Source: Clavelina lepadiformis
Lineage: Eukaryota > Chordata > Ascidiacea > Aplousobranchia > Clavelinidae
Length of the DNA: 64,000 nucleotides
Assembly (NCBI RefSeq): GCF_947623445.1
Contig: NC_135244.1
Span: forward strand, 20,150,860 to 20,214,859
Reading direction: 5' to 3'
Shown: piece after piece, positions 31,503 to 60,919 of the stretch
How the letters are laid out: every line of letters begins with the position of its first letter
Numbering within the stretch: position 1 is the first letter of the stretch
Translations under genes and position numbers: made by a program
The notes under the pieces: generated by a model
Seen by the model: only the letters and a program-made list of their open reading frames with translations
What the model was told of the DNA's origin: nothing
The model's database searches: none

Positions 31503-32213
31503 ATGAAAAGAAAAGTATTTTTATTGGTAGTTATTTGTTTGTGTGTGTTCTGTTCCATCAGTGAAGCAAGTAAGTTTACTTTTCATCAACTATTAAGTTA
31601 AAATGTCATGAAACGTTTGCCATGTTCCAGTAGGTCTAAGACATAATCTTGACAGACTCAATTGCCTTTTCACAGGAAGGTCTCGTCATAAGACGAAATC
31701 TCGTTCAAAAATTTGGTGTAAAGTTTTGAAAAAGTTTGCTGGCATTTGTAACCGGAGAACAGATACGCAGGAATATTCCGTCAATTGCGGATCGTTTAAG
31801 CATAATCGTATAGGTATGTTTTGTAAATAAACACAATTTACAAAAAAACTTTGAAGAATTAAAAAAGAGTTTATACACCTGACAATAACATAAAGAAATA
31901 ATTCTGAATACTTAAAATGTGAAACATGCAAATCGAGTACTGTCATATAGAAGGGCTGCTTGCCAAAAAAATCATCAATTCAGTGTAGTACTAGTAAAAA
32001 ATGAAAACTATCCCCTTGTTTGAAACAACGCAATAAAAGTGTTTTTGTGTTACGTAATAGAGTAATGCTGTAATAGTTAGCAAGAAAACTTCAACAAACA
32101 TATCGAACAACTTCAGTTAAAAATGTTAATTTTTTTCAGCTTTGACTTGCACTCGATGTCGAGAGACTTATGGGGTTTGTTCGAAAAACACGAAACTTTT
32201 TCGTCTACGATGA
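31503..32213 (+). CDS. Gene A: secreted six-cysteine peptide, 3 exons, 92 aa
   Basis: Exons 31503-31569, 31676-31813, 32140-32213; GT-AG introns, both in phase 1; 279 nt, 92 aa. Exon 1 encodes a signal peptide (MKRKVFLLVVICLCVFCSIS, cleavage probably after EA). The mature chain is strongly basic (RRSRHKTKSRSK). Exon 2 carries C1-C3 (WC, x9, IC, x12, CGSF) and exon 3 carries C4-C6 (CTRCRETYGVC). Six cysteines suggest three disulfides and extracellular export. It is the closest relative of gene B: same exon 1 and exon 2 lengths and mostly similar residues, such as the shared ICNRR. AATAAA lies at 32390-32395. I do not recognise the family. Size, charge and disulfides would fit an antimicrobial or signalling peptide, but that is inference only. 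Confidence 0.85.
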
Positions 32214-32506
32214 AAACCAATCAGATGTTTTATGATGTTTAAGCACCCAATGACGTCAGGGAAAATCGATGACTTTGACTTAAAATTTGCGGTACAGCTG
32301 TTTCCGTTATCTTTCACAACTTGCTATCTTCTAAATACTTTTTTGTATTTTATGTTGTTTGTGTTATTTATTAATGGTTGACAGCGTTAAATAAATCACT
32401 TTCAGCACTTGCATTTAAACTTCTTAGTATAAAATAGAAACGATATTGTGTTACAGGCCAAATTAATTTATTGTCAGTTTGACTGGTTAGGTTTCCAAAC
32501 TTGCAG

Positions 32507-32643
32507 AAACGTGTATAAAAACGTACTGTTTAAATCGTGCTGGGGGTGTCTGCGATAAATCAATTGGCGATCTGTCATATAGGAAAGCGAAGTTCTATTC
32601 AAGCGCTTGGAAATGTATTTCTGAAACCAGAAGAACTTTATGA
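32507..32643 (+). CDS. Candidate alternative or orphan terminal exon with four cysteines
   Basis: Acceptor GGTTTCCAAACTTGCAG, then two bases and 44 codons to TGA at 32641. The open phase matches the phase-1 exits of gene A exons 1 and 2, so it could be spliced onto either. It encodes TCIKTYCLNRAGGVC and later SSAWKC (spacing C-x4-C-x7-C-x20-C), a different cysteine pattern from the standard last exon. It lies about 290 nt after the gene A stop and beyond the AATAAA at 32390. It may be an alternative ending of gene A, or the remaining exon of a separate small secreted gene. No transcript evidence is available here. Confidence 0.4.
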
Positions 32644-33687
32644 GGTTTTCGTTCATTCGTTCACATAAGTTTTAATCGTCATCAGGAAAAACGTGATTTG
32701 CGCAGCTGCGCAGTAGCTGATTGTAAATTAGTTGACTTGGATTAAAAAACACAAGCTACGTTTCTTCCAAATACTTCTAGGAATAAGCACACAACACACT
32801 TTGATCCATGTCAAGCAAGCTTGTTATAAATGTATGAAATTCCGTTTAATTGTATTTTCATTTCAATTCAACGTCATACCAGCACACAAAATAAAAGTAA
32901 ATTTTGACTTAACTTGTAGATGTTATATTTTATTTTATTAGTTAAGATGTCTATGCCAGCAATATTCAGATGTCCGACGGGCAGTCGATGTTTTAAAAAC
33001 TTAATAATGACCATAAGGTTTTTCGTTTATCAAGTTTCCGCGGTGTGGCGCTCCCGAGTTTGAGTTTATCTTTGCTTTTAGTAGGATGGCTCTGGTAAGC
33101 GATAAAATATAAGGCAACATTTGGTTTCGTATCAAATAATTTTAAAGCAGTTTTATAATTTACAATGTCTCTAAATTTCTTACTTTTTTCAGGCAAATTA
33201 TTTATTAATTAGGCGCAGATTTTACCATGCACTTTGCACTACTTGGCTGTAGTCCAGGTCTTAAAAAGAACATAAACGCTGTAATTGAAATTTTGAAAAG
33301 ACAATAGAATAAAAGACGGCTTTTTTCGGTGTCTTTTATGCCTTATGACCATACATAACACATGTTGTTTTAGGTTCTATCCTATGTTCTATGTCATGGC
33401 ATTCTACAAGTTGCATTTAACTGCTTCTCAATACATAGAAATGCATGGAGAGCGCTAGTACGGGTGAACGTTTATATTTGCGCAAAAAGAAACGAAAGCT
33501 TTGATTGCGGTTTACATGACAAACGCGAATGTTAAAGTGATACTGCTCATTGAAAGAACATGCGAGTTCATTGGAGTTCACCGTGATATTACATGATTAG
33601 GCATATGACGTAAGAGTGGCGCTTACCCGCACACAGCGTGTTATTAATATATGAGAACTTTGTGGATTGCCACAGTAGACCATATAG

Positions 33688-33877
33688 CAAAGATGGACAA
33701 ACTGCGGCTCGCCGACATGTATTTTGTGGCTCTTCTAGCTGAATAGCAATATCCATTATTGTTCGTTATCCATTCATTGTTTACCGTATGTCTATTGACA
33801 CTACTGATTTTGCGGCTCGCTGGTGTTGGTAGTTTTTCATAAGTGACTCTTTCATTGAACAAGTTTGCTCACCGCTG
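33688..33877. mobile_element. Probable hAT-type MITE, diverged
   Basis: The left end CAAAGATGGACAAACTGCGG and the reverse complement of the right end, CAGCGGTGAGCAAACTTG, are similar. GCGGCTCG occurs twice inside, as in common hAT MITEs. The flanks CCATATAG and GTGTATAG share only 5 of 8 bases, so the target duplication is weak. Confidence 0.45.
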
Positions 33878-34112
33878 GTGTATAGTCTTCCACTTAAAAT
33901 CTTAAATAATAAAAAGCACGATATGGTTTGGACAATAAAATGTATTGTTGCGTCACAAGTACTACACTGTTTGGCTCAATGGCCGTCGACTGACCCTTTC
34001 CAAGTAACAGCCGCCATTTATGGAGATATGAAAAATATTTTTTGATCGCCCATACTTAACAATATAAATTATTGATTCACTTTGATTCTTTTTAAATTGC
34101 AAGAGTTTTGGG

Positions 34113-34278
34113 CATTAGATAGATTGATTAGCATTAGATTGATTGATTAGCATTAGATTGATTGATTAGCATTAGATAGATTGATTAGCATTAGATTGAT
34201 TGATTAGCATTAGATTGATTGATTAGCATTAGATTGATTGATTAGCATTAGATTGATTGATTAATTAGCATTAGATTG
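34113..34278. repeat. 19-bp minisatellite, about 8 copies
   Basis: Tandem copies of CATTAGATTGATTGATTAG. Two units carry ATAGATTG instead of ATTGATTG, and the last full unit has a 4-bp insertion. The array ends with a partial copy. Confidence 0.95.
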
Positions 34279-35639
34279 CAAAAATTTCACTCAGGTGGGA
34301 AACATATGAGTTTCTTTGCACAAAATATGACGTCACCATAGATGGTCAGCGAAGCATGTAACGTAAAATGCGTGATAGTCGGCGTGTCACTGCAGCCGCT
34401 TGCGTATAGAATTGTCAACCTCTGTGCTGCAGTGAAATAAAAGAAAATTAAAAGTTAACAACAGTACTCATTATAACAACATACAAACCAACAATGCGCA
34501 TTTAGAAACGGTTGTGTTGATAAATGCGGTAGAGCCTTTTCATCACCATTAGAATCTAAATGTGAAAATGTCATGATCGAGTAATTTTGAACCGGCCGGC
34601 AAGCTTGATGGAACTTTTTCCACAAATTCGAAAAACACTTTCTCGTATTCCAATGGGTGATCAAAAGACTTTACCATATTTTGCAAACGGTAGTTTTTGT
34701 GATTTAAAACTTTTTATTAATAGGTAATTTTAAGTTGGCCACTGCAAGTAAAAAATGAGGCGCCATCTGCTTGTACAAAACCATGCAATAAATTGGTGCG
34801 TTTCAAAAGTTTATATGATTAACAAACGAACACATCGGTCAACTTCAGTTACAAAGCTGTTTGGAAAAAGTAAATATTTTTTATCTTCTTCTGCTGTAAT
34901 CTATTGTTGCCTTTTCTTGTCCTTAACAGACTTAGATACAGACGTAACTTGTATTGAAACAGTACAGTACATTTAACACCGAATTTGAAGTGTATTGTAA
35001 CACAACACTTTAATTAGGCTTAAACAAACTTGTAACTGGGATAACTTATGATAAAAGATCAAATAATAAACATATAACAAAATATTAGTAACTTCAAAAG
35101 AATAAAAGTTGGACCTACTGCAACCAGGCAGACTTACACATTTAAGGTCGAGATAACGTATAAAGCCACAAAAGTAAACAAGGTACGATCCACGTTCTAC
35201 ATGCAATCAATGTGCTTGAGGTCTACCACCAAGATACTACATATTTTCCCCAATTCAATTACATAAATATTTACCACAGAGTTCTGCACACCGAGCTCAT
35301 TCTTATAACCTCCAACATAGAATGATCATGAATGACCATAATCTGGCCGAGGTATCGACCGCATTGCGCGCAATCCAGCACAAAATGGCGCAGTCGGCCG
35401 CAAAGGAAATATAACGGACCCGAGCTCCAAAACACGTATAACAGAAACACTATCGCGAGTTGCGTGATGTTTGTTATCTGATGACATCAGAGAATATGAG
35501 TAAATTTTTTACCTTCAATCCAAAACCTTCAATCATAAAATAAAAACGGTTCCTAAGACTCGGGAAAAATACGAAAATTAGATTCGAGTCTTTTGAGATT
35601 CGGTTTTTTAGGATACGTTATTCTAGGTTCTAGAATGTG

Positions 35640-36030
35640 CATCTTTATTTGTACTCCACACACACTTTGAACGTTCCCCGTCTTTACGTCACTCATTGTT
35701 ACATTCCCAGCATTCCAGATTGCTGTGTTGGCTACGTTGTGCTGACTAGAGTTGGGCCTAGAGAGAGGTGTTTTGTCAGGTGTCAGTTTTTTACCGGCTT
35801 AGAACGTGACTGTTATTGACTCAGTGTTTTCTCTCTTGTGGTGTCGTGTTGACTATCTTGGTAGTTTTTGTAGCAGCCGCGGCTGGTTATTTTCTCGTTT
35901 ATTCCTTAACTGTTAGTTTTTATTATTGTACCGTTACTATTCATTTTATTTAAACCCTTTTAATATTTGTGGTGCCGCGACTCGCCGTTGAAGTGATATC
36001 GAACTTGGCTTTTACCCCACTTTTATCGCG
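35640..36030 (+). mobile_element. Possible LTR-retrotransposon fragment with primer-binding site
   Basis: TGGTGCCGCGACTCG at 35969-35983 looks like the complement of a tRNA 3' end (ending CCA), as in the primer-binding sites of BEL/Pao-like LTR elements. It follows a roughly 330-bp non-coding stretch that could be an LTR. I see no second LTR and no gag or pol ORF. Tentative. Confidence 0.25.
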
Positions 36031-38626
36031 ACACCTGTATCAGAAAATAAACTATTTTCTTTTCAGATAACACCAGGCTTAGCACACAATACATTCTCTG
36101 CCACGTCACAAAGGTCCTTGTGATAAATGCTATTCAATATCACACAATATACGCCAAGTCATAGTAAACCTTCGTAGATTTTCGTCTACGCTTGAAGGCA
36201 CGTAAACAAATCATCACAAATGTGCTTCTCTCGCTCTGTTTAAATTGCTTTTTTGTTTCATTTTTATCTTTGTATTGTTTATGAGCATAGGGTTTGTGCC
36301 ATTTACTACATAATTGGCGTGTACGAAAGGGGATTCCCTTGACTTGTTTTCCAGCAAATATCCTACAGTACAGGTTAAGTGTATGTAAGCGGCAGACTAT
36401 TTTAATGCGATTTGGTTAAAACGTAAGTCAAACCATAATCAAAAACTGCGTGGTAGTTTACTACAATGGGCATTCAAAAGCTTGTAAAAAGTGTTTTATA
36501 CATTCTGTCACCAGGTCACGGAGACCACGGTTGTGTTGCTAAACTAAGACTGGTAGGACGGCTTTTCCTGCTCGACAAACCAAATCAAGGTAATAATCAG
36601 CAACTTTAACTAGAGACCTCGTCGAAACAATGTATAGCCTGTAACTATGTGGATAGTCCTTAATGCTTTGTCAGTTCCGGCGTCTTTGTTTCATGAACTC
36701 AACGATCTTTAACTTTGTGATGAAAGAATTATCTTGAACGTAGATCTCTACTGCGTGTTGACCTCTGCAGGGCACAACGTGCACGTTCCTGTGTTTAAAA
36801 ACCTATTCGACTTAGCTTGCACTTGGCTTTCTTCTGTTTACTTCTAGTGCGATTTTCGGCGATGACCTTTATGTCGATTTCTGTGGTGATTTCCATCCAA
36901 GCGCTTAAACCACTCGTCCATGGTCTCTGTGGTAAAGCATAAGTAAAACTTTGCTTTCTTACCAACTGCTTTTTAAATTAGATTGCAGGAGAGTGTAACA
37001 TTCTTCAAATCCCTTATACATTTTATGGGCTAATTGTTTATGGTTAAACGTACATTTATAGCGCATTTATATATTTATATTTTATACCGACGCTTCGGAT
37101 ATCTTTTTTCTGTAAAATTCCATCGTGTCAACAGGCCGGAAAAATACTGAAACTCAAGGCATATTAAAGGGCGCATGCTTGTCACATAGCGACAAGCACC
37201 TCGTATCCATCCATTACCAAATAAAAATGACGTCAGAACACGCGCGTGGAAAGTCCATGTTTGCAAAAAAATCAATCAAAGCTGCATAATTATGGTTAAG
37301 AGCAAACACGAAATTTCAAAGTGCACTTGTCTAATGAAGGAAAGTTCGAGTTGGTGTGGTGCGAACCGCTTCTTTACACGGTTATGCGAATCGTGTAAAG
37401 AGAAACGTATGTATGCTTTAACAACATGTTACAAATATTTGAGAACTGTTATTGTCTACTGCAGTGCGTCGCAGAATTTGCTTTTAATTAAAAGTTAGCA
37501 AAGCTTCATTAGCTAACTATACCATGTTGAGGGTGTGTGATTAGTTAAGCATGTTTTACACGAGAAAACAGTTGTTGAAAGAAATGGGAAAAACTGCAGC
37601 TATTTCTGAAGTGGATATTTACACAGAGTAAATTGCTCAGGCTGAAGGCTTGGTAAACTAGTTTGGAGTCCTAGGGTGGTGCAAAAGGTCAAAGTAAGTA
37701 TAGAAGGATGATGGTACAGTAGTTGCTTTAGTAGCTCACTTTGGCCATGTTTACACGATGTGGTAAGATTTGCCATTTTTTTCTCATAAAACTGTAGACA
37801 AGGTGCACTTTTCGTTTCTGTTTTTTTTGTTTTTTTGTTTTTTCTTTTAGTCAGTTTTACCATTTGGAAAAGCAAGATTGTACTCCAAGTAAGGAAATCG
37901 TGATGTTTTCATTAATTTGGACAAGCATCAAACATCATTTTGTGTAGTTTAGAAAATAACGTATCAGGTATAACCCTATATACTTACTTTCCCCGAGCTT
38001 ATCTTGGAAGCATTCGCAACACTTTCAACCGTAAAGAAAAAAAGAAGTTTTATAGAAAAAAAGCTATTTGAGCTGCTGCGCTAAAATTTTACGACTTTTT
38101 CCAAAATTTACTTCGCTATTGGTTGGGCTAAACCTTTAACGGTTATTTGAATTACTTTTTGCTGAATTATAAATTTCTTGTAAGCACGCAATTAATTTTA
38201 CGGTGCTTACCGATTTTGACCGTTTGAGTTTTCCCCATTTTGGATTGCAGAGACAACATCGAACAATATAGAATTGATTTTTTTGTAAAATATTTTTTGT
38301 AAAATCTATGATTAACGACATATAAAAATATGTTTTTAAAACAACTTTGAATTTTTCAATTAATTATGCTTCAATAGAGAAAGAATTCAAACTCCAAGAA
38401 AACCCAAAGATAATGTAGAGTTGAAAATTCTGCTTTACGCAAACAGTTACCTGCATTCCAGCGGTCCTTCTGTAAATAAGTTTTATCATTATTTCTTTCG
38501 CGTTTGTGTGTTCAAAGCACAAATGTACTTGACACCAAGAAAGAACTAATACACTATACGGAAAAATACTTGACTAAAAGTTTATCCAATTTTCCAGGTC
38601 ACATAAGCACGCCAGTCCAATAAATC

Positions 38627-38634
38627 TATAAAAG
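38627..38634 (+). promoter_or_regulatory. TATA box of gene B
   Basis: A canonical TATAAAAG 46 nt upstream of the gene B ATG. It implies a transcription start at or just after TTTTTATAG (38641-38649) and a very short 5' UTR. Confidence 0.55.
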
Positions 38635-38672
38635 TCTTTGTTTTTATAGATGTTATAGAAGCAAGATTTACA

Positions 38673-39497
38673 ATGAACAAAAAAGTATTTTCGTTTTTAG
38701 CTATTTTTTTGTTTATATGTTCTTCCATCAGTGAGACAAGTAAGTAAAGTTACGTTGAATAATTATACCCACGATTAAAAGCTCATTAAATATTTATTTT
38801 AATTTAAACACAAGACAAATGCTTAGAGACTTTTTTATAGAAAGATCTCGCCATATCAAGAAACCCCGTTTAAAAGTTTGGTGTATCCATCTAAAGAACT
38901 TTGTTGGAATTTGTAATCGGAGAGCAGACACGCAGAGATTTTCCGTCAAATGCGGGGCGTTCAAACTCAGTCATATAGGTACGTTTCACAGAGAAAATTC
39001 ACAGAGAAAATTTTGCTTACTTTTTGAAGTTTATCCAATGTTAACAACGAGTTATCCTGTCATTATTAAGTAAACAAATTGGAATCAGTGTTCTTTATAA
39101 AGCATAAGGACGCCCAGCACTGCCCAGTAATCGACTAGTATAGATTAAAAGCAGTGAGAGTATAAATGATACAAAAATGAATATTTATTAGATATTTACG
39201 TTTGTCTGACCAGTAGGAAGTCTGTATGGTTTTTAAGTCTTTACAGCTTTGCAATTTTTAAACGTTGCAATAATGAAAATGAAACTTACTCGGAAGAAAA
39301 TACGTAATTGCGTGGACACCAGTATCAACTTTGTATGAAGCATAAATGTAAAGCGGTGATGATTAACATGATAACTTCAGATCAAATAACTTCAAATAAA
39401 ATGCGTAAAATTCTTTTCAGCTTTGATGTGCAACCGATGTCGAGCACCTCACGGGATTTGTTCGGAAAATATAAAACTCTTTAGTGTTTTCTCATGA
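38673..39497 (+). CDS. Gene B: secreted six-cysteine peptide, 3 exons, 93 aa
   Basis: Exons 38673-38739, 38841-38978, 39421-39497; both introns phase 1; 282 nt, 93 aa. The signal peptide is MNKKVFSFLAIFLFICSSIS. The mature part has the same frame of residues as gene A: VWC-x9-IC-x12-CGAF, then ALMCNRCR-x5-C. Exons 1 and 2 have exactly the same lengths as in A (67 and 138 nt), so A and B are a recent duplicate pair in the same orientation about 7 kb apart. AATAAA lies at 39828-39833. The protein is basic, and its function is unknown. The last residues after C6 differ from A, as expected for a less constrained tail. Confidence 0.85.
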
Positions 39498-43883: not shown

Positions 43884-43955
43884 GTATACTGTCTACTGTA
43901 TGGATCAAGTATACTGCGACATATTAAAGTATACTGTCTACTGTATGGATCAAGT
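43884..43955. repeat. 27-bp direct repeat
   Basis: GTATACTGTCTACTGTATGG plus seven more bases occurs at 43884-43910 and again, identical, at 43929-43955 (period 45 bp). The spacer also begins with part of the same motif (GTATACTG). Confidence 0.9.
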
Positions 43956-44554
43956 CGTAGGCGCAAGCAAAATTGTCTTGATATACCGGCGGATAATTAT
44001 TCCACCCGCTCATTAAATCCAATTTAGCTTGAAACGGAAATGTCCGCAAACACTCCGGCAGAAAAACGGCCTCTGAAAACATCGTTTGCGAATACTCTCA
44101 AGGTGTGGCGAAATACCGTAAATAATCAATTTCAGCCTTATAGTCACACATATATGTCAAATATTTATGCTAATAAGGAGATTTAGCAAACCTAAGGAAT
44201 GTACAGACTTGCAGTTTATACTTGGACGTACACTTGTTTCCAATCGACTTCGATTTGTATGTACAGCAAGAATTAAGGTCTCACTGAAACTTTTACAAAT
44301 AAGGCTCCTGACAAATCAGGCTTAACTCTGCAAGAAATATGAGATGAACGAAACTTGCTGAAAACGTGAATGCGTAGCTTTGGTTTTAACATCAGTACAC
44401 AGCATTGATGGAAAGCCATGGGAAGCAGACCTCAACCTTCAGTCATGATTTATCTTTTTCGTTCGTTTCTTTGTCACCTCCAGGTATGGATTATAAAACT
44501 GACTCAACAAATAAAGGCTTATGACAAGAGTTGGCATTGTAGTCGGGTTATAAT

Positions 44555-45392: not shown

Positions 45393-48300
45393 AGGGGGGA
45401 GAGACAAGCACCTTCACGTGGTCCCCCCTGTCAGTAACATATCTAACAAGAAGATATGCGAAGCGAAGTTTGTCAAAACCGAGCAATTACCCAGACCAGA
45501 GTTCAGCGCAGAGTGGCGAGGGAAACGCCCTTCCCAGGGCGCGGCAGCTTCTCTGTCGAAAAGTACCGTAGACCCACCGTCCTGCAGCTGAACACCGAGG
45601 GCATCACCGCCAGCAAGATCAGCGTCATAGAACACCTGGCCAACAAACATCAAGCCCTCATCATCGTCCTCCAAGAGACCCACTGCACATCTATGGATAA
45701 GTTGGTAATAACCAATTTCACACTCGCAGGCGCAATCCCCAGCAGGAAACACGGCCTCGCCACGTTTGTCCATGATCAACTGAGCTGGACCCTAGAAGAC
45801 CAATCCCCAGCTCATTCGGAGCTCGAGTGGCTTTGTGTAGACATAACAGGCTACAAGATCATCAATATCTACAAGCCCCCACCCTTGCGACTTACACCAT
45901 CAGCCATACCAGTGTTCCCCCACCCCAGCCTCTACATTGGTGACTTCAATAGCCACCACACGGACTGGGGCTACAAAACAACCAACAACGATGGAGAAAG
46001 CCTGGCTGCCTGGACAGCCAATAACAACCTCACCCTACTACACGATCCTAAGGGTGCTGCTAGCTTCTTCTCCGGGCGTTGGAACACTGGTACAAACCCA
46101 GACCTGGCATTCGCAAGTATGGGCTCCGATTGTCGACACCCGCACAGACGCGTGCTAGAGAAGTTCCCAAGGTCCCAACATCGACCCTCGCTTGTCACGG
46201 CCCCCAAACTCGCACTGCCTGTTCCGAGCAAGCGGGTTAAGCGTTGGAACTTCAGAAAGGCCGACTGGAAACGCTACGGCTTCCATACAAAAAAAGCCGC
46301 GAAGCGTCTACCTCCGCCACACACCATCCACGTGGACGAAGCCTACCAGGACCTCTGCGACGCAATAACATCTGCGGCAAAAAAATCCATCCCCCGCGGC
46401 CGTCGGAAGATCTACATACCGTGCTGGGATGAGGAGTGCCAAAGCCTCTACTGCGACTTCCTTGATGCCCCTCAGGGCGACGACACCAACACATCAGCCA
46501 CAGTCTTACTAGAAAGGCTTGATCAAAAGAGGAAGCTCCGCTGGACGGAGGCTGTCGAGTCAATCGACTTCACACACTCTAGCCGCACAGCATGGAGAAC
46601 ATTGAACAATCTCACTGGCAGGTCACGAGGATCTCGTCAACAATGCCCTGTCTCGCCTAATGCCATCGCGACACAACTTGTGAAGAACGGGACGTTTAAA
46701 ACGAGAGACCGTGAATCAGACAGGTCCGTCCTTCAGGAAATGACGGACCTCTGGAAGGTGCCAACATCACACGCAGACAATATCCCCGGCGACTTCACTA
46801 CGGAAGAATTCGTCGCCGCCCTCCAGCACATAAAGCCAGGTAAAGCTCCGGGCCTTGACCATCTATGTCCGGAACTAATACTCCACGCTGCTCCCGCCCT
46901 GAAGTCCTGGTTAAAAGACTTCCTTTCCTGCTGCATGCGCCACCTGCGCATTCCTAAAATCTGGAGAAGAGCCCTCGTGGTTGCAGTCCCTAAGCCGAAG
47001 AAGCCCCCAGGGGATCCAAAGAGCTACCGTCCCATCTCCTTGCTCTGCATCCCCTTCAAGATCCTCGAAAGACTCATCTACGCCCGTGTCGAACCGATAA
47101 TAGACCCACAGCTCCCTCGTGAACAAGCTGGCTTCCGACACGGAAGATCAACCGTAGACCAGGTCACACTTATGACCCAAGACATCGAGGACAGCTTCTC
47201 AGCTAAGAAGAAGGCCGGCGCCGTGTTTGTTGATCTCACGGCTGCCTATGACACCGTGTGGCATACCGGTCTCACCTGCAAACTACTCCGTCTACTTCCT
47301 GACAGGCACATGGTCCGCATGATCATGGAACTTGTACAAAACCGTAGTTTCACCCTCACCACCGGCAGCGGCCCACGAAGTAGACTACGCCGACTCAGAA
47401 ACGGCGTCCCACAGGGCTCCGTCTTGGCTCCCCTCCTGTTCAACACATACACCTACGATCTGCCCAGCACCACCTCCAAGAAGTATGCCTATGAAGAGGA
47501 CCTGGCACTCCTGCATTCTGCCGGAGACTGGCAGTCGATGGAGAGGCACCTTAGCCAAGACATGCAAACACTAACAGCATATCTCCAGAAATGGAAGCTG
47601 CAGCTCAGCAAGGCAAAGACAGTGTCGGCGGTCTTCCACCTCAACAACAAAGAAGCACAGCGTGAGATAAACATCACTATTGATGGGGAAACCCTGCCCT
47701 ACAGAGCCGAGCCCACTTACCTCGGCGTGACCTTGGACAGGGCACTCACGTATCGTCGACACTTGGAGTTACTGCGCAATAAACTATCTGCGCGCGTCGC
47801 ACTCCTAAGGCGGCTGGCGGGCTCAGGTTGGGGGGCCGGCGCAAAAACCCTACGCACAGCCACCCTGACACTTGTCCACTCCACCGCCGAGTACTGCGCA
47901 CCAGTGTGGTGTCGTAGCTCCCATACCCGCCATATCAACACCGCCATCAACGACGCGCTGCGTATTGTGACTGGTTGCCTGCGTCCCACTCTAACGGACT
48001 ACCTACCAATCCTTGCAGGCATCCAACCTGCTGAGCTACGCCGCAAAGGAGCCATGATTTCTCTCGCCCGCCGCGCCTTGGACCCTAAACATCGTCTCCA
48101 TACCTCACTCCAGCGACCACCACCTGGAAAGCAGCGACTGAAATCAAGACACCCCTTTGTGCCGGCCGCACAACAGCTACTCAGTAGCGCAGAAGACCTT
48201 GGACTAAGTGCGGCGCACTGGACGAACCACATGTGGAGCACAGAGTGGCACAACAACTCCTTCAGACTCTGTGACTTCATAACCGACGCCGACCCAAACC

Positions 48301-48591
48301 CACCAGGAATGTCCCTCGCAAGAACTGCTTGGGTCAGGCTCAACCGCTTGCGCACCGGCGTCGGACGCTTTCGTTCAGACATGCACAAATTGGGACTGGC
48401 TCCCTCACCAGGATGCGAGTGTGGTGCCACAGAGCAGACAGCAGACCATGTGATCAATGCCTGCCCAATCCATCGGCCCCCACACGGTGTGCTTGGTCTG
48501 AAAAGACTAGACGAGGATACAATCAAATGGCTGATGACCTCATGCCCGGAGATCTAGTCTGGAAGGAAGAAACGCTCAAACGAAGAAGAAG
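45393..48591 (+). mobile_element. APE-type non-LTR retrotransposon (Jockey-like LINE), near full length
   Basis: A 3.2 kb element flanked by the 10-bp target duplication ATCATACCAT (45383-45392 and 48592-48601). It starts with a G-rich run (GGGGGGAGAG) and ends in a GAA-type simple tail (CGAAGAAGAAG) rather than poly(A). The insertion site is itself made of ATCATGTT-like repeats. It holds one long ORF (endonuclease plus reverse transcriptase) and no separate ORF1 protein that I can recognise. It is visibly richer in G+C than the surrounding DNA. Confidence 0.92.
45456..48557 (+). CDS. LINE endonuclease/reverse transcriptase polyprotein, 1033 aa
   Basis: Retrotransposon protein that would nick the target and reverse-transcribe its own RNA. 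The APE-like endonuclease occupies about residues 42-245, with N46 (QLNTEG), E74 (LQETH), GDFN 162-165, D216 (NPD) and H242 (SQH). Reverse transcriptase spans about 450-760: PKSYRPISLL at 521-530, EQAGFRHGRST at 556-566, motif A FVDLTAAYD with D593, motif B NGVPQGS at 649-655. Motif C reads Y679-E680-E681-D682 where YADD is expected, so the first of the two catalytic aspartates is glutamate (codon 47496-47498). A C-terminal CECGATEQTADHVINACP Cys/His segment follows. The ORF is otherwise uninterrupted. The first 40 residues may be out of their ancestral frame, because the shifted frame over 45400-45590 is also open. Confidence 0.9.
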   Translation: MRSEVCQNRAITQTRVQRRVARETPFPGRGSFSVEKYRRPTVLQLNTEGITASKISVIEHLANKHQALIIVLQETHCTSMDKLVITNFTLAGAIPSRKHGLATFVHDQLSWTLEDQSPAHSELEWLCVDITGYKIINIYKPPPLRLTPSAIPVFPHPSLYIGDFNSHHTDWGYKTTNNDGESLAAWTANNNLTLLHDPKGAASFFSGRWNTGTNPDLAFASMGSDCRHPHRRVLEKFPRSQHRPSLVTAPKLALPVPSKRVKRWNFRKADWKRYGFHTKKAAKRLPPPHTIHVDEAYQDLCDAITSAAKKSIPRGRRKIYIPCWDEECQSLYCDFLDAPQGDDTNTSATVLLERLDQKRKLRWTEAVESIDFTHSSRTAWRTLNNLTGRSRGSRQQCPVSPNAIATQLVKNGTFKTRDRESDRSVLQEMTDLWKVPTSHADNIPGDFTTEEFVAALQHIKPGKAPGLDHLCPELILHAAPALKSWLKDFLSCCMRHLRIPKIWRRALVVAVPKPKKPPGDPKSYRPISLLCIPFKILERLIYARVEPIIDPQLPREQAGFRHGRSTVDQVTLMTQDIEDSFSAKKKAGAVFVDLTAAYDTVWHTGLTCKLLRLLPDRHMVRMIMELVQNRSFTLTTGSGPRSRLRRLRNGVPQGSVLAPLLFNTYTYDLPSTTSKKYAYEEDLALLHSAGDWQSMERHLSQDMQTLTAYLQKWKLQLSKAKTVSAVFHLNNKEAQREINITIDGETLPYRAEPTYLGVTLDRALTYRRHLELLRNKLSARVALLRRLAGSGWGAGAKTLRTATLTLVHSTAEYCAPVWCRSSHTRHINTAINDALRIVTGCLRPTLTDYLPILAGIQPAELRRKGAMISLARRALDPKHRLHTSLQRPPPGKQRLKSRHPFVPAAQQLLSSAEDLGLSAAHWTNHMWSTEWHNNSFRLCDFITDADPNPPGMSLARTAWVRLNRLRTGVGRFRSDMHKLGLAPSPGCECGATEQTADHVINACPIHRPPHGVLGLKRLDEDTIKWLMTSCPEI

Positions 48592-50435: not shown

Positions 50436-50475
50436 AATTGATTTAATTTCTTAAGAGTAAAAATTTTTTTTAAAA

Positions 50476-52188
50476 ATGAGAAACGTTTTTACCGTATTTG
50501 TTGTTGTTGGACTTGTGGCTATGTGTGACGCAGGTAATATTTTATTGCTGTATATTATATTAGAAAATTATTTCTTTTGGAATTTGTTGTTAATATTTTA
50601 ATACAATGTATTTGTATATAATACATGCTATAATTTATACAAAAGTTGACAACACATGACAATTATTAAACGTACTACGCGACGAATTCGTTTAATTGCA
50701 TACCAGATAATCGCATAATCCATTTTATCGCATAATGGTCGTAACTCCCAAACTATAGCCAATCATTTATTAAGGAAATATTTCGGTTTATCACATAATT
50801 CGGTTCATTGCATAGAATTAAAGCTGTTTATTCGATTAACCGAACCCTTAATTGCTAGATTATAGTGACAGAAACAATTGTTGTAAATTTTGAACACGCA
50901 ATGTGTTTGCTGCACGCTCTTAAAAGGAAGCTGTCAATTGCGCGTTAGTTCCATATTCATCTGTTCTTTATATCGTTTGTTAAACACCGCATATTTTTGT
51001 ACAGTATTTTGAAATGATGAAAGCGAGCCCAAGCAAGCACCAAATCGAAAATATTTATCGTTGTCAGACAAGATCCTTGTTATTAAAGAACTTGAAAAGA
51101 AAACATCTCAAAGCGCAATTTTTAAAACGAAAAATGAGTTTTTGTTTGCTCATGGTAACAACGTACCAACGTACCAACGTAACAACGTAACAAAGTAAGA
51201 ACGTAACAACGTCGATTCCCTGATTTCGGATATACGCATAATCCGATTAATCGCATAAAAAGCTGGGCAAATTGACTCTGCAATTAACCAGATTTGTCCT
51301 CTATATCGAATGTATCATTGGAGGAAATATTTAAAAGCAACCTTTGTTGCAATAACGATTTAACGCTTCTCTTTTGTATTAAGACGCCGCCGACAATGCT
51401 TCGGGATCAATAACGTCAACCGTAGAAACATCATCGGCAACAAAGGCAACAAAACCGCCAACCTTGCAAAGAATTGGACGTCCAACAATCCCAGATCAAT
51501 TTTGGTGTTCATTTTTGGAAAACAAAGCGAATATTTGCAAGTTAAATGCAATAAACAGGAAGTACAGTATAAAGTGCGGTGATTTCAAATCAAATTTTAT
51601 AGGTATGTAAAACAGAGCGTGTTTGTGTGTATGTCTATGCTTCCTATCTAAATAAGAGTAAGTGACAATGCGAAAGTTTAGATGTATGGAAAAAAATATT
51701 TACTTCCCTAATAATACGACATCCAAAATATAACAAGATAACAGTATAGTCTATAATGTACTATGTTGGGTGCAATACATTATATAAAATTTATAGATAT
51801 AAATGCATGAAGACGATATGTATTATTTATAGTTGGGATCATTTTTTTCTTGCCCCGGTATTATTTAGATTTTATACCAATATTTCAGCGCACGGTTCCT
51901 GCATTTTAATGTTGCTTTCATAACTTACCGTAGTCCACAATGTTATCGTCAAATTATGTAATGATCTAAAAATGTTTAATATGAAGTTAGAGGTATACTA
52001 ATATATAATTATATATTTTGTCCTTTCAAATTCTCTCTTGATATTTTTGTTGTAATAATACAGTCATAGCAATAGTTTAATAAGTTATGTCTTAATCTTG
52101 TTTTTCAGCTCTTAAATGTTCTAAATGTCGGGACGTTTTGAAAGTTTGCAAAGATAGCCAAAGACTTTTTGAAGTGAGCTACGGCTAA
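50476..52188 (+). CDS. Gene C: secreted six-cysteine peptide with Ser/Thr-rich spacer, 118 aa
   Basis: Exons 50476-50533, 51384-51602, 52109-52188; both introns phase 1; 357 nt, 118 aa. The signal peptide is MRNVFTVFVVVGLVAMCDA. Unlike A and B, exon 2 begins with a roughly 35-residue Ser/Thr/Pro/Ala-rich stretch (SGSITSTVETSSATKATKPP), likely disordered and possibly O-glycosylated. The cysteine module follows: FWC-x9-IC-x12-CGDF, then ALKCSKCR-x5-C in exon 3. Intron 1 (850 bp) carries a short ACGTAACA-type tandem repeat near 51153-51212. AATAAA lies at 52235-52240. Same orientation as A and B, but separated from B by the LINE insertion. Function unknown. Confidence 0.84.
51153..51212. repeat. 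Imperfect 8-9-bp tandem repeat in gene C intron 1
   Basis: Seven or so imperfect copies of AACGTACC / AACGTAAC in a row. Confidence 0.7.
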
Positions 52189-54323
52189 GAAGTTATCGTA
52201 CTCAAAACGATTTTAACTACATACAACGAAAGACAATAAATTCCTAATATATGTTGAAATTAAAATCAATTATGTTCTCACCAAAATTCATTTTCATTTG
52301 AAAGCGTAAAAAAGCATACCGCGAGTTTTTTGCTTCGTGTATTTTTTCAGTTTTATTGTGGCTGTTTTCGGTATTTACGTGTATTTTATAAATACAATGA
52401 CGAATAGTGCGTGTCATCCGCGTTTATAAAGCTGGAAAATTAATGATAAAGAAACAACTCCAACCCATGTAACAATCACTTGTTCAAACATAGTCAAATA
52501 GTATAATAAAATATTTCAAAAAGCCATGTCAATTGCTTTACATGTATTTAAAAGCCAATCAATGAAAATTAGTATACAGTGTAATCTATAGCACATGCAA
52601 TTGCTATGCATGTGGTTTTCAATTGAATATTGATGTATAATATAAATTTTGAGCAAAAGTTTTGCGTTCATGCATATTGTATGTATGTGTGACATCTATT
52701 TGATACTCATGTTAAATTTAATTATGCACTTATTTATCTATTATCTGTTCAAGAAAAATAAAATGCACGATTGCAAATTTGTAGGTTGAAATAATTACAC
52801 GTTGTCGAAACATCAAGTCTGAATCGCCATCACACTGTACGCTAATCAGGTGTTTTGTGCTGGCACTGCCACGACACTTGATGTTTGGTGTCATTATTTG
52901 CCAGGAAATTACATACTGCACCGACTAATGACGTAAGCAATTTGCACACGGTTTTATGACGTAAGCAAGGCCAAGCGATTGCAGAGTCCCGTTGGTTTGG
53001 TAGTAACACAGGATCAAATATGTGAGCCAAAGTACCTAGTATTGAAACGTGTAAGTTGCCGATCTTTACACACGGTTGATAGATGCAGTAGAAAAGCTCT
53101 TATTTCGTTTGAAACAATTTACAAACGTTTAGATTTTCTTTCTTTCTTAACTATTGGACAGATCCACAAGGTCGTTCTCTCTCTCTCATCTTGCGTATGA
53201 CGTTCGCGTCTTCCAAATAAGCAAAACATTCCAAGCAAAACAACGCCGCCATTTTATAAATCGGTGTTTTAACCATCACTCGTGTAGTTTTTCTTTGTAT
53301 TGCAAAGTTTGCTTTGAGTCCAATAAGTTATCATTACAGGGCAGGACGTTTTTGTTTTTAATGCGCTTTCGCTACAAAAATGAGTTTCTTTTTTAAAATA
53401 ATCCCAGCAGCTGAGGTTAGTCTTCGTTGTCATGCTGCTAATTTTCTTCTTTTGTGGTGTACCTTGACATGCGAGATGACCAGTACGTGTATAAGTGGTT
53501 CCGGGGATTTGTCCTATTTGGAGCAACTACTCACTACTGTATGTGAATACATAATTACAGTTGGTAGCTTATGGAGATTAATAGCTTTCAAGAAAAACTT
53601 CAAGGTTAAGCCGAATCGTTTTATTTTCTGTCAAAAATGTGATAAATTTACGAATTTTAATGCATCAAAATAATAATATCAAATTGCGTGAGATGGTTTT
53701 ATACTTAGTAAAGTTCGTGCGTCTGGTTCATTTTAATGCAAGGCTTGAAAAACACATTTGGCAAAATGGTTAAGTACAAAGCACGTTTAAAATACATGAA
53801 AAATTATATAAATTCTCACAACGCCACAACACTTTTGTAATATACAATAAGTACTGTATAGCCATGAGCCTGCAGGTAAACAATAATGAACGATAACAGA
53901 AAAAGTAAGAAATAAAAGCAATAAAAAAGCTCTTTTTAACCAAAGTTACACAAAGAACTTTTATCAAAAATTGATGGTGCTGTTGTCAAAAACTAAACCA
54001 AAAAAACAGCAATAAAGTCTTCGGTACTTGGTACATTGTAAAACGTCTTTAGTAATTTCGGTCGAGTTGAACCTGTTGAACCAGTTTTGTTGATCTGATT
54101 TTAAACTTCATCTTAAAATATAGCCCTAAAATTTATCAAAATTAAGTTTCATTAATTATTTATTTTAAACTTAACTTGGTATTTTTGTTGTCAAGCGTAG
54201 CACCACCAACTTTTTAAATGTACGCTACTAATTAGAAGTTATCACTGCACACAAGTTTATGTCTGATTTCAAGTAAAAATTCTCTGAACATGTAATATAC
54301 AAGAAGAAGATGTGATAATTTTA
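52189..54323. other. Convergent intergenic interval between genes C and D
   Basis: 2.1 kb between the 3' ends of two head-on paralogues. Besides the gene C polyadenylation signal I see no gene. A plus-strand ORF near 53380-53673 ends in FCQKCDKF, but it lacks a third cysteine and the family splice pattern. Confidence 0.6.
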
Positions 54324-55781
54324 TTATATGCCGAAAATTCTTGCTTTATTTCCGCAGTATTTTATTCCACTCCGACACATAGAACATATAAACCCTGTTA
54401 CACAAATAACTCATAATTACAGATCTGTCATATAAGATTGCTTGGCCTAAGGCAAGTTGACATTACCGATACCATCTGTGGTTAACATTAAATGCTATGG
54501 AAAAAATTACTATACTTTAACATTACTATAAGGAAGGAAACAATTTCTTCTGCTTATATTAAATCAGTTTATTTCAAAACATCGCTTTATCAGGCATCAT
54601 ATGCTCGGAAAGTGTTACGTATTATTTTGAATAACTGCAATTGTCTTATTGGGCAACCAATGGTACTAGTTTGGTGGAAAAGGGGAAAGAAAAAGTTCTA
54701 AAACATATTGAATTAAGTTATTGAATTCCATTAAGGAACCAAAAACAATTGATTACATAAGCAACTTTAAAACCCAAATCATAGATTTTTCGACAAAAAG
54801 CTAAATTATTATTTAGATAATTTCTTAACAAATCAATTAAATCTTGTCATAATTCAAACCTTCAAAGTTAAATATACATAAATACTCACTAGTTCTTTTT
54901 GTCTTGAAATCTCCGCAGCTGATAGAGTACTTTCTGTTTTTCAGGTTGCGAGTACAGATGTGGTATCTTTGATCAAAATTATTGCACAACATTACCAGGT
55001 TGAGGGTTCGCGGCTTTCTATAGACCTTTCTGCTCCGCTTTTTATACGATCCCGACACTTGTATGTTTACCAAATTTTCCGGGGTTTCGTCAGACACCTG
55101 AAGTTTTCTCGACGCACTGATGTGCAACGAAAATGTTGACTCTTTTGGGTCAACAACATCTGCATCAAACCAACAAGTGAAACTAGTAAAAATCATCACT
55201 AAAGGTTGTTTGATAACACAAAGGTATGGTGAAGTAGAATTACAGCAACACGCCGCGCTACAGAGTAAAATGCCAGATTTTTCAGTGGGAAAACGCACTC
55301 AAATATAAACCATTATAACTAAAAACGCTTAAAAACGTTTTTCAAAGATTTTTATTCTTAACCACGATGACGTAAAGTTTTTTTATGATTTTAATTTCTT
55401 TGGTTCCAATATTTATATATGTTCTGTTAAAAAGTCATCATATATGTTATCCTGCATAGGCAGCAGACACTACAGGAGCCTCGTTTAGGTTACAAAGCTG
55501 CGGTTGATTTTTTGCTACTGAAAACAAGAACTAAAGCATTTTGTACTTTAGAAAGACACACTTTTTCAAAAAAAAAGAATTGTTTTAATCAATTTACTGT
55601 ATCCGACAAGTTTTTCTGACTGTAATCGCAGTTCAGTTTCCAAATTACATAATACTTAATATTTTTCAAAATATACTTCAACCTAAACTTGGTTATTTTA
55701 AGGAAACTTACGATTTCGCTTCGATCCTGAAGTGATGATGAAACCCGAGAAAAGAAGAACAATGAAAATTGAAAATCTCAT
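54324..55781 (-). CDS. Gene D: secreted six-cysteine peptide, 3 exons, 136 aa
   Basis: On the minus strand the exons are 55781-55712, 55159-54890 and 54394-54324; both introns phase 1; 411 nt, 136 aa. The signal peptide is MRFSIFIVLLFSGFIITSGS. Exon 2 begins with about 60 residues of polar, partly basic spacer (SYKKRSRKVYRK) before the module MLC-x9-IC-x12-CGDFK. The 71-nt last exon gives ICSMCR-x5-C and ends KARIFGI. The tryptophan before C1 found in A, B, C and E is leucine here. The exon 2 acceptor (TTTGATGCAG) was chosen because it preserves phase; a different acceptor would only change the spacer. TATATATA lies about 80 nt upstream of the ATG. Close to C in the core (RKYSI before C3). 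Confidence 0.8.
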
Positions 55782-55858
55782 TTTCTTCTATATTCCAACT
55801 TGCAGATCAGAACACACTTTTAAAAAACAAACAAAGCTAAGATAATACTTTACCGCTG

Positions 55859-55868
55859 TATATATAAT
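55859..55868 (-). promoter_or_regulatory. TATA box of gene D
   Basis: Reads CCATTATATATAC on the minus strand, about 80 nt upstream of the gene D ATG. An AG at 55800-55799 (minus) could be a splice acceptor in the leader. Confidence 0.45.
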
Positions 55869-56767
55869 GGTAGGGTGCTTTTTGCTTCCGATTTTTAAAT
55901 GAAACTGTTTGTACTGAAGTTGCCTCAATAAAATGTGCAAAAAAACACAAGTCTCTAGAAAAGTGATGTCATCTCCGCCGCGGGCCTGAATCGCTACTGG
56001 CTACTTGTGGTTTAACAACAATCAAACAGAGAAATGTACAAAGTATAGTTAGTATAGATGTATCGTCAATATTCTCTTTGTACATAAGAAGCTTATACAC
56101 AGGAAGCAGAGAATGGTTTGTTGTTGAGTTTTCCGTAATAATTAATGCTGCAACTGCAATGAACGTTCTGTCGGCTGTTTTCGTTTTATGCATGAGCAAT
56201 ACTGTGTAGTTCGGAAAATTGTAATAAATAAAACCAGCAACTGCGCCTTCACGCGGTGGTGCGTATCATGACGAGTATGCTTATCGAGCTTAAATCTGAC
56301 CGACAACGTTTCTTCCACGAAGTTTTCCCGAATAAATGACTATTAATCAGATAAAAGACAACATATCTACAGTCTTCATAAACGAAACGCTAACTCTCTT
56401 GTGCTAGAAAAATTTGCCAAGGTAGATCATTTGCATCATTTGCCGACATTAGTTCGCCTTGAGCAGAAACCTATACTTTGTTTGCTGGTAAGTCGGGGTG
56501 CAGTCATCTAAATATCCACATCTTTAATCATAGCCTGATTTACTGCTCGAAATTTCAAGTCTTAAGTGTTTTGCGATTAAAATCGCAAGACGTCGCAAAA
56601 TTTTTGGTGGCACAAACCTATTTTCGAAATTGTTTTAGTGATAACTATATACACATAATTTATCAAACGCATGCATTTGGCCTGCAGTGTCGGAATACTG
56701 AATTATGGGAAAATATATCAGATACACACTTTTAAGTGTATTCAATTTACGACCACATACTACAGAT

Positions 56768-56830
56768 CAGGGTTTCTCAAACTGTGGGTGGTGACCTCGT
56801 TTGGGGTCTTGAAATGAATTCAACTTTCAT
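56768..56830. mobile_element. hAT transposon terminal fragment
   Basis: CAGGGTTTCTCAAACTGTGG followed by GTGGTGACC is a typical hAT left end. No matching right end or target duplication was found. Confidence 0.55.
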
Positions 56831-56963
56831 CAATTGAATTTTTTGTTAATTATTGATTGATTTTTACTGTTTCCATTATGCGGTTCTTTTAGACAAAAAT
56901 ACCACTTGAGATTTGTAATGGACGGTTTATAGTTTTAATATCGTTAACGTGTATAGTCTAGGG

Positions 56964-57256
56964 CAGGGGTAGCAAAACAGTCAGAGACTAAGAGCTTCAT
57001 TTCTTACTGTGTTAACAGTAAAGAGCCACATCATACACATTGGCACACATGAATATCACCCCGTCTCTTACTCACTCACATACACACCCTTGTTCAACTA
57101 CGTTTATTGCAAATGTTACAAACCAACATGAAAATGACAGAAATTTACAAGTCATTTATACTGTAAAAGCTAAAAAACACAAATACAATATGAACGAAAG
57201 AGCCGCATAATCCCGGGCAAAGAACCGCATGCGGCTCGAGAGCCCCGGGTTGGCCG
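56964..57256. mobile_element. hAT-type MITE with CGGCTC ends
   Basis: The left end CAGGGGTAGC and a right end CCGCATGCGGCTCGAGAGCC followed by CCGGGTTGGCCG match the widespread hAT class that begins CAGGGGTGGCCAACCC. AGAGCC occurs inside near both ends. The last few bases at the right end and the target duplication are not intact. Confidence 0.6.
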
Positions 57257-58524
57257 TAAAGGTTGCGACTATAACTTATTGGTAGACGGATGTCATCAAG
57301 TCTCACACGACAATAGTATGACGTCATGTTTGCATACAAAAGTTTTTTTCGACAGAGTAGCAGGAGATCAATAGTAAAAGCTACTCGCAACCTGATCACA
57401 AGATTGAAAATAAAGCTAATGTTTACCACCGGTTACTAATACTAATGAAACTTTACTTTTTTGTTAAAAAATAATTGTAGGTCAAAAATTTAACACAGTG
57501 AACTCTTCTACCGTACATGAGATTGGCGTTTCCTGTCGTTTGCAAAATGTGGTTACGGTTACGATAAGTTACGGTAGTTACAGTAAGTTACGCAAATAAG
57601 TTACGGTAGTTAGGCAATAAAATTGGTAAAATGTGTAAAATTGGTAAAATCTTATCGGCCACCTTTTTATCCTTGATTTTAGGAGGCCAGGGTGGAAGTT
57701 GAACGAATTCTGTCAGTATTTTGTAAAATTGAAACTTACCAATCTAAATAACAACAATCGAAGAAACAAAGCAAGAGAAGCATGTGTCACGTGCCTCAAT
57801 CACGCGTTGATCAGGCGCTGTGCACGCAGACACAATGCCAATACGAATTGAAACTTGATAGAACTGAAGGTTATTTTCTGATACTTAGTGGTTGACTGAT
57901 AAGTCAATGCTTAGAGCCTTAGACTAAACGTGACAGCTAAAGTGCTAATAGCACTTGTGGTCGTCTCCTCACGCGCCTACAATTAAACTTGTATGGTCTT
58001 CGAAGCAAACGTTTATCTTCCCCGACAAAATGGCGAAGGTCCGTAACAATTGTTTTTTTACGCTTAAAACGCTAATCTTAATATTTTGATATGCTATAAG
58101 AACGAATTGTCACGTACTTTTGTTTCGCTGCAACTGGAACTGATGTAGAATTTCTCTTCACTAAATTAACATGAACAGAGTTCAAGACTGATAGTTCGTT
58201 GGCTTTGATCAAACTAACTTCGTGTTTTCTGGTATAGTTTGACGCACAATAATACGCAGTACACCTCTATAAATGCTTCCAGTTTATAGCGTCTTACGCA
58301 ATATTTTCTTGACGATGACTGCTTTAAATGAAAACTCTGAAGTTACCCATGACGTCTGTTCCATTGTCAAGAAGTGTCAAAAACGTCACAAAAATTAAAA
58401 CCACAAAGATTTTATTTTCAAACACGTCATTACAATTACCATACAAAGTTTAAATTGGTTTGTTTTAATTTAGTTCAAGGAATAATGATTTTCAAAAATT
58501 TAAAAGACGATACACTTCATGACT

Positions 58525-58746
58525 TTATAAACTGTAGGTCATATTATTAGTTACTTGCACAATTGTTTGATTTTTGTGTTGATTTTCAATACAAGTACAA
58601 AATTGTATAATTACACAAGAACGTTGCAAAAAACTCCAACTGTATAATTTTCTTAGCTGCAAACGATTAATTTGGCCTTTGCTCATCCGTGCACTTTGGC
58701 TTAAAACAAGATTAAAAAAAAATAGTATAAATGTCCTGATAAGCAT
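58525..58746 (-). CDS. Candidate small secreted protein, 73 aa
   Basis: Single-exon ORF on the same strand as D and E, lying between them. It starts at the internal methionine MLIRTFILFFFNLVLSQSA, which looks like a signal peptide. It then has YSWSFLQRSCVIIQFCTC, with three cysteines close together, and ends NNMTYSL. The spacing does not match the six-cysteine family, and there is no intron. It could be a degenerate relative, an unrelated peptide, or chance in AT-rich DNA. Confidence 0.22.
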   Translation of the reverse strand: MLIRTFILFFFNLVLSQSARMSKGQINRLQLRKLYSWSFLQRSCVIIQFCTCIENQHKNQTIVQVTNNMTYSL

Positions 58747-59444
58747 ATTTTCGCCCAAACTTACAAAACCGAAATTTATGTTTCAAAAACGACAGATGTC
58801 TGTTTGTAGATCTGAGCAAACTGTTTGAAATAAAACGTTTCCAACCTGGATTTTTCTTGTTCGTTTAAAGCGAAAAAATATTTTATAGAACAATATTCAA
58901 CTTTTCGACGTTAAAAAATAACAACTCACGAACTTAATGCAATTGAAGTTGACATTGTGTTTCGATACATTAAGACCAAAAGCAATTGCATCCACAAGTA
59001 CACGTTTTATTCATTTAACGATCTAAGTCAATTTGTAAAACTTACAGTTGGCAGAACATGAAAGTATAATTAGGAAACATTGCATTATATATACAATGAA
59101 AATGTAACAATGACAGCAATGACAAGTAACAATGTAACAATGACAGCAAACATGCACTTGGACAGCTATGATGTTAAAAAACATATTTAGGAAACAAGAT
59201 TATATTTCAAACTTTAGCCATGATGATAAAGTAATTTTAGTATTTTGATTTTGATATTAAACTCATTTAATAAAATAGGATGAAATAACTTTTAATATTA
59301 CATGTCGTTTAACAATTTTCAACTATATGGCAATATATAAACTCAAAATTTTCAATATTCTGCGAACTTTTAAATCTCACATAATGTAAGTGGTACAAAG
59401 GTGCTGTTTTGGCATTCCAAGCCACAGTAAATAAAGTTCCTTCT

Positions 59445-59595
59445 TTAAATAATAATGATTTTTCCTTTTCCTCTGCAAAATTGAGTCAACCACCGGCAAT
59501 AGATACAAACGTAAACTGTAATTTATAATTTAGACATTTCTTTAAAAATAATGCCAATATCAATGCCGCATAAGTGGTAATAATAATAATAACAC

Positions 59596-59629
<34 letters not shown>

Positions 59630-60919
59630 CTAAGAGAAAATTATGAATGTATTTACAGATAAAACCTATACCAACCGGACACGGTATGAAATAACGTAAG
59701 TAAGGATATTTAAGGACCATGTCCATTAAATTACTTTTTCGGTTTCACAAATCAACTTCATCTTGACCCTTTTTGTTTGTAAGTTATTAGAAAACTTACC
59801 AACTTTATTAGTTTTTGAATGGAAATTATGGAGCTCTCCACAGCCACACATATATGTCCGGGTTATCAAGTTTCTATCACAGATGTGAAGTTTTTTGTGA
59901 AGGGTTGAGCACCATCCTATGAGGGAAAACGTATCTCTGCCCAATTTTCTACTCCGCGTTTTGGTAGTTCCTTCTTTTTTGATCATCCGCACGCTTTTTT
60001 GATCACTAGATGCGGACGAACCCGTTTTCCTAAAACCACCGCGAGAATGTGCAAGTTTCGCACCTTTCAGAAACGCGACGTGACATGAAATGCAGAAAAC
60101 AAATATGTTATGAATCGTAATAAATGAATTGAAAGGTTCACTATGAGGCTTGGTACGGTTCACTATGATTATGGCAAAAAAGGTTTATCAGTGTTCAACT
60201 TTTGCACAGAAAGATGCCCTACTGAAGACAAATGTCATAAACGAACTTGAAACTGAGTGTAATTCCGATAAGAGTCTCTCATTGAATCCTACAGATACTT
60301 TTTGTACTTAATTTCAATAATACTTTAAGAAATATGACGTATCAAGTTTATATGAAGAGGATAGCAAAATACGTCATAGATGTAAAGGCGCATACCGCAA
60401 ATACCGCGACCGCAAAACTATACAATGACCATTACATGAGGTGATAAATTGTGAGAAAGAAGTACGGTAATCCACGACGATAAGTTCGTGTCTTTAACAA
60501 CAAATCAGTGTGGAAAAACTATAATTAAGGAGAAAAATATATGCTTGTGAGTACGTTTAAATCGAAACAACAAATATATGTGCCTCAGGCTGCGCAAATA
60601 ATTATTATGTTGATTATAATCAACAGTGTACGTGCAGCATTAAACACGATACATGCGAGAATAGATCGAGTCAATTCAATCAAAACGTATGACGACAGAA
60701 AAACCATTAAATAACAAACTACATGTCAGGTATATCATACAAGGTCTAAAAATAACTTATAGAGTATATATATAGAAAAACTACAAATTCAACTACAATT
60801 GATATTTTACTTAAGCCTAGCTGTTCAAAATTAAACTTTAATTTACCCTTTTTGCTTTTAGAGCTTGAGGTGATGATGAAAATCGAGAAAAGAAGGGCAA
60901 GAAAGATGAAGATTCTCAT
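59445..60919 (-). CDS. Gene E: secreted cysteine-rich peptide with a seventh cysteine, 135 aa
   Basis: Minus-strand exons 60919-60847, 60063-59800, 59515-59445; both introns phase 1; 408 nt, 135 aa. The signal peptide is MRIFIFLALLFSIFIITSSS. A basic spacer of about 55 residues (RMIKKEGTTKTRSRKLGRD) precedes the module GWC-x9-IC-x12-CG. The last exon encodes VCIYCR-x5-C and ends in a run of isoleucines. Compared with the other four, there is an extra cysteine two residues before C3 (TYMCGCGE), and the C3-C4 loop is 15-16 residues instead of 11. An odd number of cysteines suggests a free thiol or a covalent dimer (inference). Its N-terminus resembles gene D, so D and E are probably a duplicate pair. 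Confidence 0.78.
59578..59629. repeat. TAA microsatellite
   Basis: (TAA)n with one interruption (CAC), just upstream on the plus strand of gene E exon 2, i.e. within its intron 2. Confidence 0.95.

Follow-up and report, generated by a model that had tools for sequence, protein, structure and literature searches.

The question raised by this stretch of the sea squirt Clavelina lepadiformis, a window of 64,000 nucleotides on contig C5 (24,617,235 bases), is whether a series of short, split reading frames encodes a genuine family of secreted cysteine-rich peptides and, if so, what such peptides might do. A first-pass annotation had proposed five genes here (g1 to g5), each with a signal-peptide exon, three exons in all and two phase-1 introns. 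Reconstruction from the DNA succeeded for all five: every gene has GT/AG splice borders and two phase-1 introns, and the open precursors are 92, 93, 118, 136 and 135 residues long, respectively. The rebuilt genes support the proposal of a family of secreted basic peptides with six cysteines, encoded by genes with a conserved split module, and, as far as sequence can tell, look like real genes.

The plus strand encodes g1 to g3, the minus strand g4 and g5. Each of them starts with an exon for a signal-peptide-like segment; exon 2 is a symmetric 1-1 exon with a variable stretch followed by cysteines C1-C3, and exon 3 encodes C4-C6 followed by a short hydrophobic tail. The exons of g1 occupy 31503..31569 (signal peptide), 31676..31813 (basic tail and C1-C3) and 32140..32213 (C4-C6 and stop), and those of g2 occupy 38673..38739, 38841..38978 and 39421..39497, with the same signal peptide, C1-C3 and C4-C6 plus stop arrangement. 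In g3 the signal peptide (50476..50533) is followed by a Ser/Thr-rich stretch with C1-C3 (51384..51602) and by C4-C6 and the stop (52109..52188). The two minus-strand genes carry a pro-region ahead of C1-C3 in exon 2, with the motif KKRSRK in g4 (exons 1 to 3 at 55712..55781, 54890..55159 and 54324..54394) and KTRSRK in g5 (60847..60919, 59800..60063 and 59445..59515); again exon 1 encodes the signal peptide and exon 3 ends with C4-C6 and the stop.

Gene models from NCBI/UniRef agree with four of the five window genes (g1, g2, g4 and g5), with the same splices. Predicted protein P0001 (LOC143460612 isoform X2) is identical to g5; P0003 matches g1 over all its 91 residues, the rebuilt g1 being one residue longer at the C-terminus; P0004 differs from g2 at 1 of 93 positions and P0002 from g4 at 3 of 136. 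Records P0002 to P0005 belong to another assembly, while P0001 and P0006 to P0008 lie on contig C5. No model for g3 occurred among the 8 proteins found in the protein searches, and exon 1 of this gene is the least certain of all, because the first intron of the gene has a weak donor (GTAATA) and a weak acceptor (TAAG).

Support against chance was assessed with profiles whose training set excluded the gene under test (g1 and g2 being omitted together), in comparison with 10 shuffled windows. Nine of the ten held-out exons outscored the best of these shuffled windows; the sole failure was g2 exon 3 (9.0 versus 12.0 bits), for which g1 had also been left out. Ratios of non-synonymous to synonymous substitution (dN/dS, NG86 method) in the cysteine domain were 0.28 for g1/g2 (dS 0.81) and 0.20 for g6/g8 (dS 1.07), g6 and g8 being copies outside the window. 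The pro-region of g6/g8 gave 0.30 (dS 1.05), g3/g4 gave 0.31 at dS 1.69, and the other four pairs were saturated. The close pairs g1/g2 and g6/g8, which could be measured well, show purifying selection, which supports function, and they do not bear out a reading of the spacers called fast-changing in the annotation as positively selected.

Spacing of the cysteines is C-x9-C-x12-C-G-x10-C-x2-C-R-x5-C in g1 to g4, exactly as annotated, and the longer C3-C4 loop noted for g5 is also present; a seventh cysteine in g5, two residues before C3, had gone unmentioned. Correspondingly, the framework cysteines are divided 3+3 over exons 2 and 3 in all five genes, as had been claimed, with the qualification that exon 2 of g5 holds four cysteines (4+3). 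The odd cysteine could provide a free thiol or mediate a dimer. Over the nine complete members now at hand the framework becomes C-x9/10-C-x12/13-C-G-x10/11-C-x2-C-R-x5-C (15 in place of 10/11 in g5), with the terminal C-x2-C-R-x5-C in every one. The six framework cysteines, the Gly after C3 and the Arg after C5 are invariant; the Ile before C2, annotated as such too, holds for g1 to g5, but g7 has Met there and g9 has Phe. Beyond C6 every one of the nine members continues for 9-12 residues, none of them a cysteine.

Every member is positively charged. In the eight members measured, the cysteine domain, 55-60 residues long, has a net charge of +7 to +14; with the preceding stretch included the value is +8 to +24 (nine members). 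A basic stretch with the motif RSR stands before C1 in g1, g2, g4, g5, g6 and g8, and Ser/Thr-rich stretches precede C1 in g3, g7 and g9.

The C. lepadiformis genome (209.06 Mb in 95 contigs) was searched with seven family queries and selected stretches were read; the published assembly is given as 210.1 Mb (PMC10884593). Nine complete and two broken copies have been found so far, a count to be taken as a lower bound because the genome searches score best candidates only. All but a remnant on contig C3 lie on contig C5, grouped into two clusters with 2 Mb between them. Genome search and reading gave g6 (contig C5, ~20.217-20.219 Mb, minus strand) and g8 (22.202-22.204 Mb); g7 lies at 22.182-22.183 Mb, its rebuilt splice being equal to P0007 (LOC143459644), and g9 at ~22.179-22.180 Mb. 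P0006 (LOC143459643) corresponds to g9 and supplies its exon 1, which could not be located in the stretch that was read. One broken copy, g7b (~22.184-22.185 Mb; L037:4268-4955), retains intact-looking exons 1 and 3 and no recognisable exon 2. The other, on contig C3 (~2.067-2.069 Mb; L039:850, 2947-3191), consists of exon 1, a basic stretch and C1-C2, and stops before the third cysteine. Protein searches limited to close relatives returned eight matches, all eight from C. lepadiformis, and no other species within that limit yielded family members.

Two predictions point to possible splicing between neighbouring copies. Isoform X2 of LOC143460612 is g5, and isoform X3 (P0008) takes in exons 1-2 of g6, so that the locus covers both genes; in the NCBI pipeline several isoforms per locus usually rest on transcripts. 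Isoform X3 ends in GYCK after g6 exons 1-2 and hence holds four of the cysteines. In a search of the window and the adjoining stretch L036, short of the 140 bases between them, a single minus-strand site preceded by an acceptor could supply this ending, at window position 61926 between g6 and g5, where 61913..61926 (~1 kb upstream of g5) is a possible terminal coding exon. P0005 is a predicted protein that fuses g9 exon 2 to g7 exons 2-3. Both predictions fit the phase-1 symmetric exons, yet they may be artefacts; for P0005, read-through may be the alternative.

Does the family carry a name already? The annotation had recognised none in the cysteine pattern, and Pfam likewise gave no match above its curated cut-off for any of the five window proteins (two given without exon 1). 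Among the nine members of the full-length profile A3 the best Pfam match had E 0.0075, the family concerned scoring 16.1 versus a cut-off of 25 for the window proteins. No match of note was obtained in NCBIfam (best E 0.05), and neither family profiles nor single sequences matched anything significantly in the PDB. Structures of defensins, Kazal domains, chemokines, insulins and trefoils are contained in the PDB, so kinship to these that HMMER could detect is unlikely, while a remote kinship is possible. Three of these candidates were also compared by pattern. Beta-defensins end in a CC pair, where six residues separate C5 from C6 in all nine members; the insulin A-chain reads CC-x3-C-x8-C, and none of the nine domains has adjacent cysteines. 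Kazal domains resemble the family in part, in C3-G and C4-x2-C5; the family has no Pfam match to them, and their C5-C6 interval is far longer than the six residues found here.

AlphaFold models built from 7 and 6 sequences had mean pLDDT values of 50.9 and 53.2, too poor to use. The second hinted, with too little certainty for any use, at three strands and at a helix in the C1 region; fold searches with it returned nothing usable. No description of the family was found in the literature searched, mostly outside subscription papers, and its LOC identifiers occurred in no paper there. The framework appears to be new; it occurs in a tunicate, a member of the sister group of vertebrates. Lineage-restricted secreted cysteine-rich peptides are already a known kind, and since such families are common the surprise is moderate.

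As to function, the annotation had left open whether these are immune effectors or signalling ligands. Host defence is preferred here as most likely, with a secreted ligand as its main rival. The putative role, a tentative first choice that falls short of even chances, is that of cationic humoral host-defence peptides, antimicrobial or opsonic; it is favoured because positive charge in every member is combined with a secretion signal and a small paralogous set. The signal peptide would be removed from the precursor, a further cut by convertases may fall in the K/R-rich RSR stretch of the six genes that have it, and three disulfides would form among the cysteines. A mature peptide of perhaps 55-75 residues would then exert its action extracellularly, through binding to anionic surfaces, and charge and pro-region would vary from one paralogue to another.

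Several observations weigh against a defensive role. The RSR motif is lacking in g3, g7 and g9, and the cysteine count of g5 is odd. The C1 segment is not consistently amphipathic, falling below 5% of shuffles in only two of nine members. Averaged over the close pairs g1/g2 and g6/g8, no positive selection is seen (NG86); conservation and low dN/dS suit a ligand as well, and the conserved Gly after C3, the Arg after C5 and the hydrophobic C-terminus suit a receptor ligand equally.

Under this main rival, which is rather unlikely, the peptides would be secreted and would act in signalling as cytokine- or hormone-like ligands; their basic stretches would be convertase sites or would bind glycosaminoglycans, and the family could be remote kin of schistosomin. 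Schistosomin is described as a snail neuropeptide that inhibits reproduction, and further roles in growth and in larvae have been postulated for it (PMC3434067). Purifying selection in the close pairs fits a ligand, and the profile of the cysteine domain (A5) gave two matches at E <= 10 among the 177,635 PDB sequences, both of them schistosomin and both over C-x2-C-R-x5-C. Their E values were only 2.3 and 2.4, schistosomin was absent at E <= 10 from the results of either full-length profile (A3, A4), and single-sequence searches gave other chance matches at E 0.4-0.5. Alignment by hhalign against two schistosomin sequences, one of them provisional, reached 41% probability (P 2.8e-4), a score attained by 0/400 cysteine-kept and 0/400 full column shuffles; the alignment pairs C2, C4, C5 and C6, while C3 is off by three positions. 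In a hidden Markov model (HMM) version the score was equalled by 4/2000 cysteine-kept and 1/2000 full shuffles. These shuffle tests overstate the support, because the candidate was picked as top match from a large search. A schistosomin query against the C. lepadiformis genome, run with no positive control, found nothing. For a hormone, a paralogous set whose members vary in charge would also be unusual.

Still less probable is another extracellular role, as protease inhibitors, structural peptides of tunic or mucus, or gamete-recognition peptides. Small disulfide-rich secreted families often serve in such capacities, and the Ser/Thr-rich stretches before C1 in g3, g7 and g9 would suit them; no inhibitor family was matched in Pfam or the PDB, and these roles do not require a strong cationic charge. 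That the exons are chance reading frames or dead remnants is very improbable: two of the eleven copies are broken and g3 lacks a model among the protein matches, but gene models exist for g1, g2, g4, g5, g7, g9 and exons 1-2 of g6, and the close-pair dN/dS values and the held-out profile test both speak for genes.

The genes are accompanied in the window by other recognisable features. Short tandem repeats with TTAGATTGATTGATTAGCA-like units were seen by eye at 34115-34280, between g1 and g2, and a GC-rich region separating g2 from g3 holds a non-LTR (long terminal repeat) retrotransposon open reading frame (45456-48557, plus strand) with Pfam endonuclease and reverse transcriptase matches. 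Further upstream, ankyrin repeats (6667-7041), a SAM domain (11508-12131; Pfam) and a long proline-rich reading frame (14664-16460), the last with no Pfam match, run in the same plus-strand direction; they could belong to one Caskin-like scaffold gene, and the stretch can serve as a synteny anchor. An LSM domain exon lies at 23609-23932 (plus strand) and resembles SmB/SNRPB.

Returning to host defence, the nearest functional precedents are the six-cysteine antibacterial peptides of another ascidian, Synoicum turgens (PMC7024374, PMC13208793). Turgencins A and B share with the family an ascidian source, six cysteines and a cationic, Lys-rich character, and turgencin A also has the Gly after C3 and C4-x2-C5. 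They differ from it in being amidated peptides of 35-36 residues, with C1-x3-C2-x4-C3 and C5-x3-C6 in turgencin A (PMC7024374). Membership was rejected on this spacing and length; residues 1-34 gave -1.9 bits against the profile, a value reached or exceeded by 1380 and 1311 of 2000 of their own shuffles. The St-CRPs, likewise ascidian and six-cysteine, with moderate antibacterial activity, are unlike the family in having 18-19 residues, a CC-C-C-CC arrangement and neutral charge (PMC13208793). Both differ from the family in framework and are a precedent for the role only.

The one lead from sequence is schistosomin. The proteins of Biomphalaria and Lymnaea (PDB 9fdo, 9rt6) have, like the family, ~80 residues; the order of their cysteines agrees with that of the family for the first six, and 9fdo contains an identical C-x2-C-R-x5-C. 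Spacings are 8 in schistosomin versus 9-10 in the family for C1-C2, 9 versus 12-13 for C2-C3 and 10 versus 11-12 (16 in g5) for C3-C4. Schistosomin has eight cysteines, C7 and C8 following the shared motif, where the family has six, and lacks the Gly after C3. The family is not filed under schistosomin because of the E value of 2.3, the failure of profiles A3 and A4, the null genome search and these two further cysteines; homology, on the sequences compared, is doubtful. A shade more doubtful is the wider proposal that this is the first chordate member of an ancient secreted scaffold that includes schistosomin, with a shared core C1..C2..C3..C4-x2-C5-R-x5-C6 that would be encoded here by two phase-1-joined exons, without C7-C8, in a cationic paralogous set. 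The link is testable, and the exact exons given above can be used in expression and synthesis tests. If the wider proposal were true, the unplaced schistosomin peptides would gain a deuterostome branch.

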